A stretch of DNA of 5,083 nt, taken from T1SED10-198M sp003554345 [NCBI: Candidatus Sumerlaeota bacterium]. Lineage in GTDB: Bacteria; Sumerlaeota; T1SED10-198M. Shown piece by piece: positions 1 through 5,083 of the stretch (position 1 is its first letter; every line of letters starts with the position of its first letter). Below the pieces are notes generated by a model. The model did no database searches. It was not told the DNA's origin and worked only from the letters and a program-made list of their open reading frames with translations. The DNA lies in contig PWGE01000444.1 of the NCBI GenBank assembly GCA_003554345.1, forward strand, positions 1 to 5,083, written 5' to 3'. Position numbers and translations under genes: made by a program.

Positions 1-285
1 CTCCGGGTAGACCTGTTTTCCCTGAATGGGGACGTGCTCTTCAACGCCATTACCCTTGCCCCCGGAGCCGGCTGGGAGCGCTTCTTTGATACCAATAATC
101 CCCAGGGCAGCTATGATATGGATAAGTGGTTTGGGAGTTTTTGGTATGGAAGGTTTGAACCACAAAGACACAAAGTACACGAAGGTAAGAACGAAGAAGA
201 ATGGTTTTTTGCTCTGCTGGGTAAGACACCAGAGCAAAAGGCTTCCAGCCTGACGGCTATTATCCCGCAGGGATGGCAAGCTTAA
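1..285 (+). CDS. ATP-grasp protein (TupA-like), C-terminal fragment with repeat-derived tail
   Basis: This reading frame is open from the first base and stops at TAA 283-285, so only the last 94 codons of a longer gene are visible. Residues 1-48 resemble the end of TupA-like ATP-grasp ligases: an RVDLF strand at residues 2-6, then F-N-A-I-T at 14-18, PGAG at 21-24, and a closing YD...G..W. They align by eye with the end of the giant gene in this window (RVDLY, FGEIT, P..G, FD...G..W). TupA-family proteins are thought to ligate amino acids to surface glycans. The glutamate usual in FGEIT, expected to bind Mg2+, is replaced here (FNAIT), so activity is uncertain. Residues 53-94 are encoded entirely by repeat unit 1, so the native C-terminus was probably replaced or extended. 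Family assignment from about 48 residues is moderately secure; the rest of the protein is outside the window. Confidence 0.6.
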   Translation, partial: LRVDLFSLNGDVLFNAITLAPGAGWERFFDTNNPQGSYDMDKWFGSFWYGRFEPQRHKVHEGKNEEEWFFALLGKTPEQKASSLTAIIPQGWQA

Positions 286-350
286 TTTCTTAACTTTGTG
301 CCCTTCGTGCCTTCGTGGTTCAGAACTCTTAATGCCGTCATGGTTCAAAA
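158..350. repeat. Palindromic repeat unit 1
   Basis: The left arm at 158-184 (AACCACAAAGACACAAAG...) is imperfectly complementary to the right arm at 294-320 (...GTGCCTTCGTGGTT). Over the outer 34 bases, 27 positions pair by Watson-Crick rules. The right arm is built of three CTTyGTG blocks. Between the arms lie an inverted repeat at 207-214/232-239 (TTTTGCTC/GAGCAAAA), a mini-hairpin AGCC-TGAC-GGCT at 247-258, and the hairpin ATCCC-GCA-GGGAT at 262-274 followed by GGCAAG. A half-size extension, CTTAATGCC...GGTTCAAAA, follows at 328-350. The left arm is 27/27 identical to that of unit 3, at 940-966. This unit overlaps the 3' end of the upstream gene and ends just before the nuclease gene. Confidence 0.9.
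207..239. repeat. Copy-specific hairpin of repeat unit 1
   Basis: TTTTGCTC (207-214) is complementary to GAGCAAAA (232-239), and an inner TGG/CCA can also pair. It lies inside the coding tail of the upstream gene. Its sequence is unrelated to the hairpins of units 2 and 3. Unlike those, it lies upstream of the GGCAAG-associated hairpin rather than downstream. Confidence 0.6.
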
Positions 351-357
351 GAAAAAT

Positions 358-744
358 ATGCATATAGAAGCCATAGGCAAGAACATAGTCCACTGCTCAA
401 TCAAGGTACACAAAACCCTCGGCCCTGGGCTCCTGGAATCAGTATACCAGAAATGCCTGGCATACGAACTGGAGCAACTCGGACATAAAGTGCAGTGCGA
501 AGTGATGCTTCCTATCAAATATGGTCCTATCACGCTGGAAGAAGGCTACAGGGTGGACATGCTCATTGATGACCTGGTGATAGTTGAAAATAAAGTAAGC
601 GAAGCGATTCTGCCCATACACGAAGCCCAGCTCTTAACCTACTTGAAAATGAAGAAGCTGAGCCTGGGATACCTCCTCAACTGGAACGTACCTGTAATGA
701 AGCAGGGTATAAAACGAATTTTAAATGATTACTGGCCTGAATAG
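358..744 (+). CDS. GxxExxY protein, PD-(D/E)XK nuclease superfamily
   Basis: This encodes 128 residues from ATG 358 to TAG 742-744. The family signature is G24-L-L-E27-S-V-Y30, preceded by KVHKTLGPG. The putative nuclease core is Y64-R-V-D67 followed ten residues later by E77-N-K79, matching the D...ExK pattern of PD-(D/E)XK enzymes. HEAQLLTYLK and a GYLLNWNVP-like strand complete the usual fold, and the length is typical of the family. No membrane segment or signal peptide is seen. ATG 358 is preferred because family homology begins there. In-frame ATG 340 and GTG 298 lie within the repeat right arm, and no strong ribosome binding site precedes any of them (only AAAAGAAAAAT before 358). The gene sits between repeat units 1 and 2. 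The family's cellular role is, to my knowledge, not established; nuclease activity is inferred from the motif only. Confidence 0.9.
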   Translation: MHIEAIGKNIVHCSIKVHKTLGPGLLESVYQKCLAYELEQLGHKVQCEVMLPIKYGPITLEEGYRVDMLIDDLVIVENKVSEAILPIHEAQLLTYLKMKKLSLGYLLNWNVPVMKQGIKRILNDYWPE

Positions 745-756
745 AGGAAAGGAATG

Positions 757-926
757 AACCACAAAGGTAGTTTATATCCCGCAGGGATGGCAAGTTTAAG
801 CTTGCTGGTATGAACCATTGAAACTGCCTTGCATTTCAATGGTTCTACCCCAGAAAACTTAATTCTTAACTTTGTGCCCTTCGTGCCTTTGTGGTTCAAA
901 ATTCTTAATGCCTTTGTGGTTCAAAA
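757..926. repeat. Palindromic repeat unit 2 (left arm truncated)
   Basis: The left arm is cut to AACCACAAAGG at 757-767, directly after the nuclease gene. It jumps into TATCCCGCAGGGATGGCAAG at 775-794, which is identical over 20 bases to 261-280 in unit 1 and contains the ATCCC-GCA-GGGAT hairpin at 776-788. A 12-bp copy-specific hairpin follows at 812-845. The right arm at 870-896 has the three CTTyGTG blocks and ends in GTGGTT. The half-size extension CTTAATGCCTTTGTGGTTCA begins at 904. This unit and unit 3 fill the 387-base gap between the nuclease gene and the giant gene, where I see no coding sequence. Confidence 0.9.
812..845. repeat. Perfect 12-bp hairpin in repeat unit 2
   Basis: GAACCATTGAAA (812-823) and TTTCAATGGTTC (834-845) are perfectly complementary around a 10-base loop. 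GGTA (807-810) and TACC (846-849) can extend the stem past a single bulged T. No U-run follows, so it does not look like a standard intrinsic terminator. Confidence 0.85.
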
Positions 927-939
927 AAAGAAAAAGATT

Positions 940-1112
940 AACCACAAAGACACAAAGTACACGAAGATAAGAACAAGGAAGAAGGTGTAATCACTTAACC
1001 CGAAGGGTTGGCAAGTTTTATCTTTGCGGTATCCCCGCAAAGATAAATTTCTTCCTTTGTGCCCTTAGTGCCTTCGTGGTTCTAAATTCTTAATGCCTTA
1101 GCGGTTTAAAAA
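940..1112. repeat. Palindromic repeat unit 3
   Basis: The left arm at 940-966 is identical over 27 bases to the left arm of unit 1. The small hairpin here is AACCC-GAA-GGGTT (997-1009), again followed by GGCAAG. A 13-bp copy-specific hairpin follows, then the right arm at 1055-1081 with three CTTnGTG blocks and the half-size extension CTTAATGCCTTAGCGGTTTA from 1089. The unit ends 19 bases before the start codon of the giant gene, so it forms nearly all of that gene's 5' region. Confidence 0.9.
1017..1047. repeat. Perfect 13-bp hairpin in repeat unit 3
   Basis: TTTATCTTTGCGG (1017-1029) and CCGCAAAGATAAA (1035-1047) are perfectly complementary around a 5-base loop. The following TTTCTTCCTTT is pyrimidine-rich, so weak terminator or attenuator activity before the giant gene is possible, but the stem base is AT-rich and there is no clean U-run. 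Confidence 0.85.
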
Positions 1113-1131: not shown

Positions 1132-2376
1132 ATGGCAGATACTTGGAAAGTCAAAATTAAAGACAACCTCCAGATAGTAGTCCCCGCAGATATAAGCAAC
1201 CAGACCACCTACGTCCTCTTAGAGCAGGAAGACTGGTACGAGCCGGAGATTGAGTTCATCCGTATCCTCTCCGAGCCTGACTTTACAGCTCTAGATATGA
1301 ATACCGGCTGCGGGATATATGCCTTGACCCTGGCCAATGAGATGGATGGCAGGGGCAAGGTTGTTGCACTGAATCCTGACGAACATTTTCAGCAAAGCGT
1401 GGAAGCTAACAAACTTCAGGGGTTGATAAGCACGGAGCAGGGAGAAGGTGGGTTTGACTTTATTCGCTTAGGGGATACAGAACCTGACAGAGATCTGCTC
1501 TCCCAAGGCGACCCCCTGATAATGTTCCCCGCCACAGAGAACAATATCCGTTTCTTTCAAGACCAAGGCTTAAAGTTATACAAACATATCCCAGCCCTGA
1601 ACATACTTGCACCCTACACAGAAGACTATACTCCTTCCATCCTGTTCGCCTGCAGCCAGGAGAGAGCAGCCAGGCTGGAGCAGGACGAACTTCTGGTATT
1701 CCAGCCAGAGCAGGAAGTCCCAGCACATCTCAAATGGCAGGATGTAATGCATGCTTGGCCTTTCGCCAGAGGGCAGATGCAGAGATGGCAGGGCGAAGCA
1801 GTAGATACCGAATACCAGACAGCCCTGAACACCTTTCTGTCTTCCATGGATAAGGACCATGACTTATCAGCCCGATACTCACTTCTGAAGCAAAGCCTCA
1901 ATCTTTTTAACGCCCTCCAGGATGAACATATAGCCAACACCTTGGCTTTAATCCGAATCAATTCAGACCTGGGCTACAGGGAACAGGCCGCTACACTCGC
2001 TAACCAGTTCCTTCAAGGCATCGGCAAAACGCTGACCCTGAAAATGGACCGGCCTTTTGTGTCACCTTCCAGTGCCTTTGATCTTAGGCCAGTGAAAGAA
2101 GACCTTGGTAAGTGGCTCTCAGCTGCGATTATGTACGCCTTAGAGACCCAAAGAGCCTATACAAGTTATCATAATCCCCAGGAGCACATCCCGGTCCTCA
2201 GCCAGGCAAACAAGCTGCCTGACACCCCCCTGGAGATACAGAGAAGACTGGCCTTGTGCGCTATGCGTATAGGGAAGAATGTGAATATTCAGCCTAGTAG
2301 TAGGCTTTTGACTGATGAGCATATGAACCCTGGGGTTTGGAGAGAATTGGGTGGTGTGGCTCCCACAGATAACAAT
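1132..2376 (+). other. Domain 1 of the giant protein: degenerate FkbM-like module plus helical tail (residues 1-415)
   Basis: The N-terminus has YVLLEQEDWYEPEIEF at residues 30-45, as I recall it from FkbM-type methyltransferases linked to glycan genes. The SAM-binding loop is at D55-M-N57-T-G59-C-G61-I-Y, where FkbM enzymes usually show D-x-G-A-N-x-G-x-Y. The next strand reads VVALNPD with N81, where an acidic residue normally binds the SAM ribose. The usual D-x-E-G-x-E is replaced by D115-T-E117-P-D. LFACSQERAARL (171-182) ends the fold. Residues about 190-415 are largely helical, with a TPR-like stretch around INSDLGYREQAATLANQFL. I infer a non-catalytic or altered domain, perhaps for scaffolding or acceptor binding. 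Confidence 0.7.
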
Positions 2377-5083
2377 ATCCAAGAACATAAGCCCCAGACA
2401 CCTAGTTCTGACTGCCTCAATATAGCCATGATCACTCCTTTTTTTTGGCCTGCCCAGGCTGGCATGGAGATGTTTTTTCATAATCTGGCTACAGAGTTCA
2501 CTAAAAAAGGTCATAATATCAGTCTCTTTGCTCCTGAATATAAAAGCAACTACAAAGAAATTGATGCCGATTATCAGCTTATACGCTTTGAAAAAGTAGA
2601 TGACTTGGCCAGGAACTTCAGCAAAATCCACCAGCAAAGCAGGTTTGACGTAATTCTGGTCCAGTCTGCCTGGCAGGCGGCAAGTATCGCACTGAAGCTG
2701 AAAGAAAAGTTTGGTGTGCCGGTAATTCTCAGAACACACGGCTTAGACATTCAGAAAGATGCAGAGGTCGGCTACGGATGGAGGCTGGACCCGGAAAAAG
2801 ACAAAGTGATTTGCGATAATTTGCGAAGAGTTGATGCCTGTATTGCCATAAGCAGTCATGTCAAAAAAGAAATACAGGAAATAGACTCATCAATTCCCGT
2901 CGAAGTAATAAATAACGGTGTGGATACAGAGTACTTCAACCCTGAGAAGAACAACTGGGTATCAAATAAGTTCAATATACCCAGGAAGCATTTTAAAATT
3001 CTTATGGTGGGCAGAAATAACAAAAAGAAGTCTTTCCACCTGGGGTTGGAAGCTTTTGCTCTGGCCCTAAAGCAAAATCCAGATATGACTTTAATTCATG
3101 CCGGGCAACAGGAAAACGGTGTTGACCTAAAAAAGCATGCCAGACAGCTGGGGATATCAGATAACTTTGTACAGACTGGTAAAGTTGATTATTACCAGAT
3201 TAACAAACTGTATCAAAGCTGTGACATCTTCCTCTTTCCCTCCAAGGCCGAAACATTCGGCAGCGTGACTATAGAGGCAATGGCGTGTGGGTTACCGTGC
3301 ATAGAGTTTGATTATGGGGCTAACTGGGATAAAATTGAGCATGGTGTTAACGGCTTTATTATCCCTTATGGGGATACAAACAGCATGTCTGAGCGTATTC
3401 TGGAGTTGGTGTCTGATAAGGACAAGTATAGGGAGTTTTCAGAGAAGGCACGGGAGTATGTGGTTGAGAACTTTAGTTGGGATGCTATTTCGGAGAAGTA
3501 TTTTAGAGCGCTGAAAACATTCGCGAAAAAACAAGATTTTGAAATAAAAGACACTCTGAATTTGAAACAGTGGTTGATTGATACAGAAATTAAATATAGC
3601 GGGTATATTAATAAATTAAAAAGAAGAAAAGTGAGCTCAAGCGATCCACGCACGCCAGAGCAACTTAAAATAGGTGGGATGGTAGGCGGGGACAGGATGA
3701 GTGATTATCATCATGGATATGGTAAATATTATGCTAAATATCTATATCCTTTACTTAACAAAGAAAATCTTACCATTGTAGAATGTGGTGTACTCAAAGG
3801 TACGGGTTTAGCTATCTGGTCAGACTTATTCCCAAAAGCCAGAATAATTGGTTTAGATATAGATTTATCGCATATAAAAGAGAATATAGATTTCTTAGAA
3901 AAGCAAGGTGCATTTCAAAACAATAATATTGAGTTGCATGAGTTTGATCAATTCTTAGACAATAAAAATTTTTTTTCGAAATTATTAGCAAACGATAAAA
4001 TAGATATATTCATAGATGATGGTTGCCATTTTGACGAAGCAATTTTAAAGACCTTAAAATCAGCATCTCCTTTTTTAAATACGAATTTTGTGTATTTTAT
4101 TGAAGACAATAAAGAAGTTCACAAAAAAATAAAGAAAGATTTATCAAATCATAATATTAAAAATTATGGTAAATTAACGATAATATTCCCACAATGTTCA
4201 ACATATGAACATAATATTAACAGCAACCGATCTGATAATAACAAAGAAGAACTTGTTAAAGTACAAGAAAGATTAAAAAATATTTATCAGGAAACAGAAC
4301 GTGCTGCGAAATTGCTTGGGTATGTACCAGATATATTGTCACCATGTTCATTTAACGAAAAGTTGTTGTGGAAGAAATTTTTTGACAGAAATCCACTCTT
4401 ACCCAAAACTGCTGATAAAGTGCTGGTGAAAGATTTTGTCAACGAAGTTTTAGGTAAGAACAAAGCTCAAGAGATATTAGTTCCTACATTATATGCTACC
4501 AAGGACCCATCTACTATTCCATTTGAAAGATTAAAACTACCATATATAATAAAGACAAATCACTCTTCAGGTTTAAACATAATAATTGATAAAGAAAGGA
4601 AGGTCGAGCCAGCCAAGATAGTAGAAAAATTAAAAAACTGGCTTAGTATTCAATATGGTCAAGTAAAATTTGAATGGTTATATAAGCATATCACACCTCA
4701 GGTAATCATTGAACCTCTTTTATTAGACAAAGATGGACAAGTACCTTTTGATTATAAGTTTTTCATTTTTCATGGAAAATGTAAGCTTATACAGGTTGAT
4801 TTTGATAGGTTTACAAACCATTCGAGGTCGTTATTTGATGAGTACTGGAATTGGCTAGATGTAAGCCTAAAGTTTAAAAAAGGACGATGGATAAAAAGAC
4901 CGGATTATTTGAATGACATGGTCAGCATAGCAGAATCACTAGGTAAACATTTTGATTTTGCCAGAGTAGATCTATACATCCTGGAAAACAAAATATATTT
5001 TGGAGAAATTACACACTATCCAGCCTCAGGCGCTGGGCAATTTACGCCTAAATCTTTTGACTTTGAATTGGGTAAGAAATGGA
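1132..5083 (+). CDS. Giant multidomain protein: FkbM-like / GT4 glycosyltransferase / SAM methyltransferase / TupA-like ATP-grasp (3' end outside window)
   Basis: One frame stays open for 1317 complete codons and continues past the window. Four domains can be read in order. Residues 1-190 are a degenerate FkbM-type methyltransferase fold with a helical tail to about 415. Residues 429-795 are a GT4 GT-B glycosyltransferase with E707-x7-E715. Residues 844-1020 are a second class I SAM-methyltransferase-like domain. Residues 1060-1317 are a nearly complete TupA-like ATP-grasp domain. No signal peptide or transmembrane helix is evident, so it should be cytoplasmic. The combination suggests transfer of a sugar, its methylation, and ATP-dependent addition of an amino acid or other acyl group during surface glycan assembly or protein glycosylation; acceptor and donor are unknown. 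The start is chosen from the Shine-Dalgarno and the onset of family homology. The ATP-grasp domain reaches its usual last motif, so the stop is probably close beyond 5083 unless another domain follows. GC drops sharply after residue 795. Confidence 0.92.
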   Translation, partial: MADTWKVKIKDNLQIVVPADISNQTTYVLLEQEDWYEPEIEFIRILSEPDFTALDMNTGCGIYALTLANEMDGRGKVVALNPDEHFQQSVEANKLQGLISTEQGEGGFDFIRLGDTEPDRDLLSQGDPLIMFPATENNIRFFQDQGLKLYKHIPALNILAPYTEDYTPSILFACSQERAARLEQDELLVFQPEQEVPAHLKWQDVMHAWPFARGQMQRWQGEAVDTEYQTALNTFLSSMDKDHDLSARYSLLKQSLNLFNALQDEHIANTLALIRINSDLGYREQAATLANQFLQGIGKTLTLKMDRPFVSPSSAFDLRPVKEDLGKWLSAAIMYALETQRAYTSYHNPQEHIPVLSQANKLPDTPLEIQRRLALCAMRIGKNVNIQPSSRLLTDEHMNPGVWRELGGVAPTDNNIQEHKPQTPSSDCLNIAMITPFFWPAQAGMEMFFHNLATEFTKKGHNISLFAPEYKSNYKEIDADYQLIRFEKVDDLARNFSKIHQQSRFDVILVQSAWQAASIALKLKEKFGVPVILRTHGLDIQKDAEVGYGWRLDPEKDKVICDNLRRVDACIAISSHVKKEIQEIDSSIPVEVINNGVDTEYFNPEKNNWVSNKFNIPRKHFKILMVGRNNKKKSFHLGLEAFALALKQNPDMTLIHAGQQENGVDLKKHARQLGISDNFVQTGKVDYYQINKLYQSCDIFLFPSKAETFGSVTIEAMACGLPCIEFDYGANWDKIEHGVNGFIIPYGDTNSMSERILELVSDKDKYREFSEKAREYVVENFSWDAISEKYFRALKTFAKKQDFEIKDTLNLKQWLIDTEIKYSGYINKLKRRKVSSSDPRTPEQLKIGGMVGGDRMSDYHHGYGKYYAKYLYPLLNKENLTIVECGVLKGTGLAIWSDLFPKARIIGLDIDLSHIKENIDFLEKQGAFQNNNIELHEFDQFLDNKNFFSKLLANDKIDIFIDDGCHFDEAILKTLKSASPFLNTNFVYFIEDNKEVHKKIKKDLSNHNIKNYGKLTIIFPQCSTYEHNINSNRSDNNKEELVKVQERLKNIYQETERAAKLLGYVPDILSPCSFNEKLLWKKFFDRNPLLPKTADKVLVKDFVNEVLGKNKAQEILVPTLYATKDPSTIPFERLKLPYIIKTNHSSGLNIIIDKERKVEPAKIVEKLKNWLSIQYGQVKFEWLYKHITPQVIIEPLLLDKDGQVPFDYKFFIFHGKCKLIQVDFDRFTNHSRSLFDEYWNWLDVSLKFKKGRWIKRPDYLNDMVSIAESLGKHFDFARVDLYILENKIYFGEITHYPASGAGQFTPKSFDFELGKKW
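2416..3516 (+). other. Domain 2 of the giant protein: GT4-type GT-B glycosyltransferase (residues 429-795)
   Basis: The domain opens with LNIAMITPFFWPAQAGMEMF, equivalent to the P..GG.E loop of GT4 enzymes but with AG in place of GG. It continues with KKGHNISLFAPE, R534-T-H-G-L-D539 and N595-G-V-D598 at the start of the second Rossmann half. G627-R628 with K632/K633 are the expected nucleotide-diphosphate contacts. E707-T-F-G-S-V-T-I-E715 is the retaining-GT4 E-x7-E motif, followed by AMACGLPC. VENFSWD near 775 marks the end of the fold. All catalytic landmarks are intact, so this domain is likely active as a retaining transferase using a nucleotide sugar. The sugar cannot be named from sequence. 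Confidence 0.93.
3661..4191 (+). other. Domain 3 of the giant protein: class I SAM methyltransferase-like (macrocin O-MT / CmcI type)
   Basis: Residues 844-1020 begin with a DRMSDYHHGYGKYY approach helix typical of sugar O-methyltransferases of the macrocin/mycinamicin type. Motif I is I-V-E884-C-G886-V-L-K-G890-T-G892, followed by FPKARIIGLDID with D909/D911 at the ribose-binding position. I-D-D962-D963-G964-C-H966 corresponds to the IDDGSH metal/catalytic region of that family. Unlike domain 1, the key residues are kept, so activity is plausible. A likely role is methylation of the sugar handled by the preceding domain; this is inference. Cephalosporin-hydroxylase-type (CmcI) proteins share the fold, so the exact reaction is open. 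Confidence 0.75.
4309..5082 (+). other. Domain 4 of the giant protein: TupA-like ATP-grasp (residues 1060-1317, end not reached)
   Basis: The landmarks occur in the family order: F1074-N-E-K near the start, D1095-K1096, Y-I-I-K1141-T-N-H-S-S-G1147 as the ATP-binding lysine and glycine-rich strand, D1207-Y-K-F-F, F-D-R, R1278-V-D-L-Y1282, and F1290-G-E1292-I-T-H-Y-P. These match the TupA-like ATP-grasp family (Pfam ATPgrasp_TupA as I recall it), named for a teichuronopeptide synthesis protein. Such enzymes activate a carboxylate with ATP and join it to an amine. The metal-binding E1292 is present, in contrast to the fragment at 1-285. A charged helical linker (residues about 1036-1060) separates it from the methyltransferase domain. 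Confidence 0.88.

Follow-up and report, generated by a model that had tools for sequence, protein, structure and literature searches.

The subject of this analysis is a stretch of 5,083 nucleotides (the window) from the Candidatus Sumerlaeota bacterium T1SED10-198M sp003554345, in which a gene of the GxxExxY family of PD-(D/E)XK nucleases sits among three long imperfect palindromes that make up a small cluster. Our analysis suggests that such a gene and the repeat arms on its two sides represent an undescribed kind of small mobile element. We consider it probable that gene and arms form one small autonomous DNA element, whose nuclease acts on the arms and of which solitary copies are derivatives. 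This reading builds on direct observations of the architecture, the arm-type specificity, the arm code, the dispersal of the arms and the presence or absence of the unit at an orthologous site. A preliminary description of the window had already proposed that nuclease and repeats belong to one element. This idea is supported and generalises, as arms face each other across the gene in 71 of 76 loci, arm copies track the gene, and the unit is present in some and absent in other species at an orthologous site.

The palindromes A (154-323), B (752-900) and C (936-1083) surround the nuclease gene, as the preliminary description had stated, and go beyond chance as judged by shuffling. Five three-unit arms were observed in the window versus none in 300 Markov-1 shuffles, and the best inverted-repeat score was 16 versus a maximum of 13 in 100 shuffles. 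DNA folding yielded z-scores of -4.0 (854-978), -6.9 (936-1084) and -8.1 (752-900). The 27-base arm described earlier did not hold up as a single 27-mer; the full arm consists of three near-copies of a 7-nt unit (CACAAAG, CACGAAG and once CACTAAG), separated by spacers of 1 and 2 nt. The distances given earlier between arms and gene (8 bases from the start, 13 from the stop) come close to ours, with one arm ending at ~350 ahead of the ATG at 358 and the next lying at ~755 behind the stop at 744. Across the gene, the left arm of A (154-196) pairs with the right arm of B (858-900) over 43 nt at 81% (inverted repeat I1). All three right arms are followed by a weaker, degenerate extra arm. The features are as follows:

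154-196, plus strand: left arm of palindrome A, with three CACNAAG units at 161, 169 and 178
207-239, no strand: hairpin inside the loop of A (inverted repeat I15)
283-323, minus strand: right arm of palindrome A, with units at 294, 303 and 311
328-350, minus strand: degenerate extra right arm after A, ending ~8 nt upstream of the ATG
358-744, plus strand: gene of the GxxExxY PD-(D/E)XK nuclease, 128 amino acids, with TIGR04256 and PF13366 matches, the invariant columns and a model of predicted local distance difference test score (pLDDT) 93.7
752-767, plus strand: left arm of palindrome B, cut down to one unit of three (760)
812-845, no strand: hairpin inside the loop of B (inverted repeat I18, fold)
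858-900, minus strand: right arm of palindrome B, with units at 870, 879 and 887
904-925, minus strand: extra right arm after B
936-973, plus strand: left arm of palindrome C, with units at 943, 951 and 960
1017-1047, no strand: hairpin inside the loop of C (inverted repeat I12)
1049-1083, minus strand: right arm of palindrome C, with units at 1055, 1064 and 1072
1087-1112, minus strand: extra right arm after C, of the D1 family, with a unit at 1097

The three palindrome loops have TATCCCGCAGGGATGGCAAG or a variant of it in common (261-297, 775-811 and 996-1032). Each loop also contains a different hairpin, positioned ahead of the TATCCCGCAGGGATGGCAAG motif in A and behind it in B and C, as if the loop hairpins were exchangeable. 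The upstream frame (1-285) enters palindrome A and stops within the loop, which gives the impression that the unit landed at the 3' end of this gene.

An intact GxxExxY gene of the PD-(D/E)XK type had been recognised before, and the profile searches bear this out. The 128-residue product of 358-744 matches TIGR04256 (GxxExxY) with an E-value of 7.5e-39 and 132.7 bits (curated cut-off 35) and, in Pfam, PF13366 (PDDEXK_3) with an E-value of 2.5e-37 and 128.3 bits (curated cut-off 22), far above both cut-offs. The motif residues are G24-x-x-E27-x-x-Y30. Residues G24, E27, Y30, D67, E77, K79 and Q91 are invariant across 46 aligned rows, E77-x-K79 being the ExK motif; from general knowledge of the superfamily, we take E27, D67, E77, K79 and Q91 to be catalytic. 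The structure was predicted with a mean pLDDT of 93.7, and the closest folds by structure are Cas4 SSO0001 (Z 9.5), a REase-like protein (8.5) and the archaeal Hjc 1gef (Z 7.6). Foldseek with the protein model returned nothing at an E-value of 0.001 or better, and a PDB sequence search found no relative at an E-value of 1. The model points, at middling Z values, to a PD-(D/E)XK protein with a Cas4/Hjc-like fold.

Arms also flank GxxExxY genes in other genomes. The relatives' set comprised 61 genomes, i.e. the window's own and 60 relatives, and the GxxExxY family occurs in 36 of them. In 40 stretches of up to ~20 kb each around GxxExxY genes, taken together with the window, 14 inverted repeats (loop of at most 150) lie within 200 bp of the genes (0.83 per kb) versus 18 in the 515 kb beyond (0.035 per kb). 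Short-period tracts, as an independent measure, number 11 within 100 bp (1.30 per kb) versus 45 in the 524 kb beyond (0.09 per kb). As judged by reading the flanks, the two arms usually lie one on either side of the gene. An arm typically consists of three nearly identical 7-nt units, whose spacing is particular to the locus. Stringent hairpin detection (9 of 30 loci) had made most GxxExxY loci appear repeat-free, which proved wrong, as arms usually flank the gene on both sides.

Arms were scored by local alignment of the 220-nt flanks on both sides of the gene, with a threshold of 13. The relatives' set held 47 loci including the window, of which 45 were scored after L053 and L060 had been dropped for short flanks. 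Matched arms across the gene reached the threshold in 37 of the 45, and 27 of the 45 exceeded the 99th percentile of cross-locus pairings. The cross-locus pairings themselves reached 13 in 66 of 360 cases, an inflated control because the arms share a family look. Around the gene of the ParE toxin, used as a further control, 6 of 30 loci reached the threshold and 3 of 30 exceeded the cross-locus 99th percentile; one of these control loci (L119) has a palindrome of the ATCCTGTTAA type nearby. A second set, here called the named set, consisted of the best 80 of 576 relatives from one scan and spans many phyla; the scan used conserved peptides of one clade, which is therefore favoured. Four loci were dropped for short flanks. 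Among the remaining 76, scores of at least 13 were found in 71, versus 7 of 54 stretches taken 2 kb out and 133 of 456 cross-locus pairings, and scores of at least 20 in 46, versus 0 of 54 and 15 of 456. Locus L140 of the named set and locus L048 of the relatives' set come from one and the same contig; L140 is included in the counts of arms, G-U mismatches, tree and arm type and left out of the orientation and spacing analyses. The outcome considered earlier, that most GxxExxY genes might have no repeat nearby, was thus not observed in either set. In some loci, the ATG directly follows the arm. Spread by plasmids or phages was considered and rejected: one query matched 7 of 72,556 plasmid records, and no relatives were found among 20 pattern matches in viral contigs by a scan that can miss distant ones.

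Moreover, arms occur as dispersed copies. The DNA around the gene was compared with its own genome in three cases, scoring 40 first-look candidates in each, and the copy counts are lower bounds. For G007 (3.3 kb around the gene), there were at least 15 other hits at a minimum of 14 places, all of them arms. For G054 (3.7 kb), at least 14 of at least 18 other hits were arms, at 13 places, with four elsewhere, one of them in the gene, and for Flavobacterium sp. JAS (G061, 1.7 kb) all but a few of at least 77 hits were arms. Arms are the main multi-copy DNA in the 1.7-3.7 kb around the gene in these three genomes. The arms beside the gene are 87-97% alike to other copies in the genome. In another genome, G026, three copies at unrelated sites have ~165 bp in common around the palindrome, and a fourth agrees with them in the left part and in the palindrome itself.

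The occurrence of arms follows that of the gene. A strict arm pattern was found in 24 of 36 genomes with the gene versus 1 of 25 without it (p = 6e-7), and within the same phylum only in 21 of 32 versus 0 of 8 (p = 0.001). Across 199 species of Flavobacterium, another arm pattern was found in 112 of 161 species with the gene (1,824 hits) versus 3 of 38 without it (22 hits, of which G199 accounts for 19; p = 1.4e-12), while the reversed-pattern control gave 5 hits in total. In G175, 54 arm hits accompany 1 gene match. Restricted to Flavobacterium genomes of at most 4.3 Mb, the counts were 66 of 114 versus 3 of 38. As the species are related, the p values of this association are too small. Repeats being equally common without the gene, the other outcome considered earlier, is not what these genomes show.

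The window itself is contig C120 of a draft genome of 2.55 Mb. Searching this genome with a close arm pattern (at most 3 mismatches) recovered only the five arms of the window, with 0 matches for the reversed control. A looser pattern gave nine matches, i.e. the five in the window and four on contig C80, so that only two arm clusters were found in this genome. The C80 arms are of a CACAGAG version and lie together at 948-1211 of stretch L342; no GxxExxY gene is listed on this contig. The contig also carries a gene of the S23 family, treated below, and at least six tracts of 7-nt repeats. The close-pattern search had led us to consider a repeat confined to this locus, which was rejected, as relatives keep the architecture and vary the arm sequence.

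The gene upstream of the element in Flavobacterium sp. JAS occurs in 187 of the 199 species, and the best 30 of these 187 loci were compared by BLAST and by eye. Twelve of the 30 sites carry gene and arms (one with an internal stop), two carry arm DNA without the gene (L313 and L323), and in 16 BLAST found nothing with the element as query (E-value 1e-3). Among the 19 closest of these best 30, twelve have gene and arms, two arm DNA only and five nothing. An extra palindrome adjoins the element in at least four of the twelve filled sites (L310, L311, L314 and L317). Among the eleven intact genes, the median ratio of non-synonymous to synonymous substitution rates (dN/dS) is 0.077 (51 of 55 pairs), which indicates that the nuclease protein is under strong selection. 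By eye, L315, L316, L320, L327, L328 and others without the GxxExxY unit contain another arm family, CTAAGATT/CTAAGGTT, of ~8 nt; no GxxExxY gene was seen by eye in the stretch between the CTAAGATT/CTAAGGTT arms at the orthologous site.

These sites also bear on homing, in which the nuclease would cut gene-less palindromes and repair would copy the gene into them; a filled site would then be a palindrome that carries the gene in the loop. PD-(D/E)XK enzymes are known among homing endonucleases, and both the close likeness of gene-side arms to other genome copies (87-97%) and the two Flavobacterium species with arm DNA and no gene at the orthologous site would fit. However, 18 species lack the gene at that site, and in 16 of them the BLAST search with the element finds no such DNA. 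Furthermore, arm hits far exceed genes in many genomes (67 versus 4 in G127), so most copies would be empty. We regard homing as unlikely.

For comparison we employed the S23 family (TIGR02436), because the intervening sequence (IVS) of 23S rRNA also has a small open reading frame (ORF) between inverted repeats. Two of 30 sampled S23 loci (L080-L109) were dropped for short flanks. Arms at a score of at least 13 were present in 27 of the remaining 28, with 21 above the cross-locus 99th percentile. Their units are ~7 nt long and very diverse (e.g. CCGGGGT, AGTGGCG, GGGATCA and AGGCATT). Arm types were compared using arms that scored at least 15 under a stricter alignment, a score reached by 0 of 30 ParE loci. 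Among 87 GxxExxY loci, 80 have their best period at 8-10 nt (50 of the 57 named loci and all 30 from the relatives); the 21 S23 loci all have it at 7 or 8 nt, 17 of them at 7. Four or more CRCNNAK units are present in 70 of the 87 GxxExxY arm pairs versus 0 of 21 S23 pairs. The arm type depends on the neighbouring gene family.

Within the GxxExxY family, arm sequence varies greatly among loci yet tracks the protein clade, within phyla too. A tree of 125 GxxExxY proteins was labelled by arm unit, with 20 loci unlabelled and six rare labels (four CACNNCG, two others) left out. The unit ending, AG or AT (82 versus 12 loci), requires 2 changes on the tree versus 11.5 when shuffled (0 of 300 shuffles as low), and the unit start, CAC or CGC (45 versus 37), 17 versus 27.1 (0 of 300). 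For the named set only (34 CAC, 28 CGC), shuffled within phylum, the start requires 11 versus 18.9 changes (0 of 300). The spacing code (75 rows; 27 versus 34.2 changes, 0 of 500) and the two middle bases of the unit (72 rows; 29 versus 40.0 changes, 0 of 500) also track the protein tree, but change faster than start and end of the unit.

A clean three-unit arm on both sides allowed the spacing to be read in 46 of 126 loci, and in 45 of these 46 the left and right arms have the same spacers, where 16.1 would be expected if the two sides were independent. The middle bases match at 0.815 between mirrored units, at 0.801 between other positions and at 0.451 between loci. The match between the arms therefore comes from a consensus and a spacing common to all units of a locus rather than from bases being kept paired; mirrored base pairing between arms is unsupported at the unit level, although the spacing is mirrored. 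Such a shared consensus and spacing is what one would expect of an array recognised by a protein of fixed geometry. Alternatively, equal spacing could come from shared descent of both ends.

If an RNA stem were conserved, G-U should outnumber A-C mismatches between the arms on the sense strand. No G-U excess was observed, with G-U to A-C ratios of 64:72 in the named set and 29:33 in the relatives, and among S23 arms the counts (27 versus 20) do not differ significantly. The reading as an RNA stem was thus not supported; the mismatch test is compatible with DNA hairpins. Orientation was counted over 120 loci, with ORFs crudely taken as the longest open frame. Where the flanking genes are co-oriented, the nuclease gene points with them in 55 cases and against them in 7, and the simplest reading of this is selection for expression by read-through. 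By eye, the elements of L051, L055, L058 and L065 lie within conserved operons in sense direction, and operon sites include leuC/leuD (in two genomes that belong to different families), pyrB/pyrC and nuoC/nuoD. The element of L049, also by eye, is bracketed by two similar copies of a C-terminal coding end of the S4-like type, which may stem from a partial duplication.

These data bear on an RNA-level element like the 23S rRNA IVS, in which the arms would pair in the operon transcript with the ORF in the loop, RNase III would trim it, and any mobility would proceed via RNA. The anatomy is that of the S23-coding IVS of Coxiella, which an excerpt of PMC4990558 describes with a 28-bp stem of terminal inverted repeats, tandem heptamers and RNase III excision, and the co-direction with host operons (55 versus 7) points the same way. 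Against it stand the lack of a G-U excess among arm mismatches, mirrored units that match barely better than other positions, and gene-less copies dispersed in genomes. An RNA-level element hence appears rather improbable to us.

The arms might also be mobilised by another enzyme, such as the REP-associated tyrosine transposase (RAYT) of repetitive extragenic palindromic (REP) sequences or an insertion sequence (IS) transposase, with GxxExxY hitch-hiking or being favoured there for an unrelated reason. Hydrolytic nucleases are indeed unable to join DNA alone, and two genomes (G047 and G199) have arm hits without a GxxExxY gene. Yet the arm type is specific to the neighbouring gene family, the arms track the GxxExxY tree within phyla, and they are scarce where the gene is missing, which makes a mere passenger quite improbable. 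That the arms are an operator or terminator of a nuclease gene in defence or repair, with the dispersed copies being unrelated intergenic repeats, would suit arms that abut start and stop, with the ATG right after the arm in some loci, but it leaves the matched two-sided arms, the dozens of other copies and the orthologous presence and absence unexplained and is very improbable.

For the autonomous element that we favour, the following course can be pictured. A nuclease multimer would bind the unit arrays of both arms, one unit per 8 to 10 bp, i.e. near a helical turn, and would cut or nick the DNA at or beside the arms. Since the PD-(D/E)XK class cannot join strands, host repair must do the joining: with the element or a solitary palindrome as template, repair of the break would copy arms to new places, sometimes with the gene. 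Solitary palindromes would then be derivatives without autonomy that are served in trans. Expression of the gene seems to rely mainly on transcripts that read through from the host operon in which it has landed.

Several observations weigh against this proposal. No target-site duplication was recognised by eye in the 12 filled Flavobacterium sites or in four G026 copies. The other two GxxExxY genes of the window's own genome, on C319 and on C8 (the latter with an internal stop), have no arms; with arms at one of three genes, the association in this genome rests on one gene, and the general case comes from other genomes. Loci below the score threshold number 5 of 76 in the named set and 8 of 45 in the relatives' set. 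The arm pattern used found nothing in 49 of 161 Flavobacterium species and 12 of 36 genomes of the other set that have the gene, while 29 arm hits in G047 and 19 in G199 occur without a detected GxxExxY gene. Sorted by gene content, arms were found in 22 of 28 of the 61 genomes with both families, in 2 of 8 with GxxExxY only, in 1 of 9 with S23 only and in 0 of 16 with neither. S23 and GxxExxY thus co-occur, and the correlation at genome level does not by itself point to GxxExxY; this check covers the 61 genomes. Co-variation of arm and protein is also expected if arms merely travel linked to the gene. Residues deciding between CAC and CGC gave strong columns with only four well-supported independent pairs, so that this association is inseparable from clade history and is not claimed. 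Finally, strong co-directionality would not be expected of a transposon that acts at the DNA level alone, and it may reflect selection for expression or an RNA step. As a separate observation, G047 (L265-L269) also has 19 S23-like matches, many of them in divergent pairs ~25 to 285 bp apart.

A wider proposal, which we hold to be possible though short of probable, is that of a large and so far unrecognised class of bacterial mobile elements in which a lone small protein gene lies between arms of about three or more iterated units. GxxExxY (8-10 nt) would form one branch and S23 (7 nt) its sister, with the classical 23S rRNA IVS as a displaced case of S23. Each protein would read a clade-specific code of unit and spacing, and the nuclease branch would spread palindromes by cut-and-repair, with no transposase. 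The tandem heptamers that precede the S23 start in the Coxiella IVS, as given in the part of PMC4990558 that deals with its 28-bp terminal stem, fit the 7-nt arm class of our S23 genes.

Such an element would assign a role to a widespread nuclease family whose function is not known, would explain a class of intergenic repeats (CACAGAG, CGCAAAG, CACGAAT and similar) and brings S23, a second orphan family, under the same architecture. In the arms, nature provides a set of protein clades each paired with its target code, so that specificity is directly testable. If the nuclease spreads the arms, this would be a REP-like partnership that works without strand-transfer chemistry. Passages of two reports place a GxxExxY protein in an algal virus and an expansion of PF13366 in Arctic microalgae (PMC12085832, PMC9756366), according to which the family is not bacterial only. 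In the open-access literature of PubMed Central, we recognised no published description of GxxExxY genes with repeats.

Elsewhere in the window, 1132-5082 holds an open frame of at least 1317 amino acids with GT4 glycosyltransferase and TupA-like ATP-grasp domains, which probably serves surface polysaccharide work. For the window nuclease, Pfam gave PDDEXK_3 only, and no HUH tyrosine (Y1) transposase of the REP/RAYT kind; the gene matched TIGR04256 and PF13366 instead of the S23 four-helix bundle. Profile searches of the window found no known transposase, and no search for other transposases was made. Rfam, at gathering score, found no RNA family in the window.

In REP/RAYT systems (REP/REPIN sequences with RAYT, or TnpAREP; the 'REPtron'), palindromes lie next to a gene and recur at scattered sites in the genome (PMC3116915, PMC2817692). 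The GxxExxY palindromes resemble this in lying beside the gene and being dispersed in the genomes of relatives, with only two clusters found in the window's own genome. Published work assigns TnpAREP to the HuH superfamily (PMC8266576) and depicts REPs as single palindromes of small size, many of them tagged with GTAG or CGTC (PMC3733652). The GxxExxY enzyme, in contrast, is a PD-(D/E)XK protein, and each of its arms lines up about three units according to a spacing code. The comparison with REP/RAYT drawn in the preliminary description is therefore apt as an analogy and does not extend to membership in the same class. The main mechanistic difference would be the dependence on repair for joining. 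With the 23S rRNA IVS and S23, the element has in common a small ORF framed by inverted repeats in which short units stand in tandem. It differs in that GxxExxY is an unrelated family with arm units of mostly 8-10 nt, and in that the window copy lies outside rRNA, with no Rfam match in the window and a protein-coding neighbour downstream. IS elements carry a gene between inverted ends, which non-autonomous copies such as miniature inverted-repeat transposable elements keep, and here too inverted ends surround a gene and gene-less copies have the same ends. Unlike an IS, however, the GxxExxY unit has no transposase of a known class, no recognised target-site duplication, and ends of iterated units that differ strongly between loci. 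As judged by the model, the protein shares the PD-(D/E)XK fold of Cas4 (SSO0001, Z 9.5), lambda exonuclease and the archaeal Hjc resolvase (1gef, Z 7.6), none of which is known to be paired with dispersed repeats. The element resembles a REP/RAYT partnership in how it works and an intervening sequence in how it looks, while it departs from each in a defining feature.

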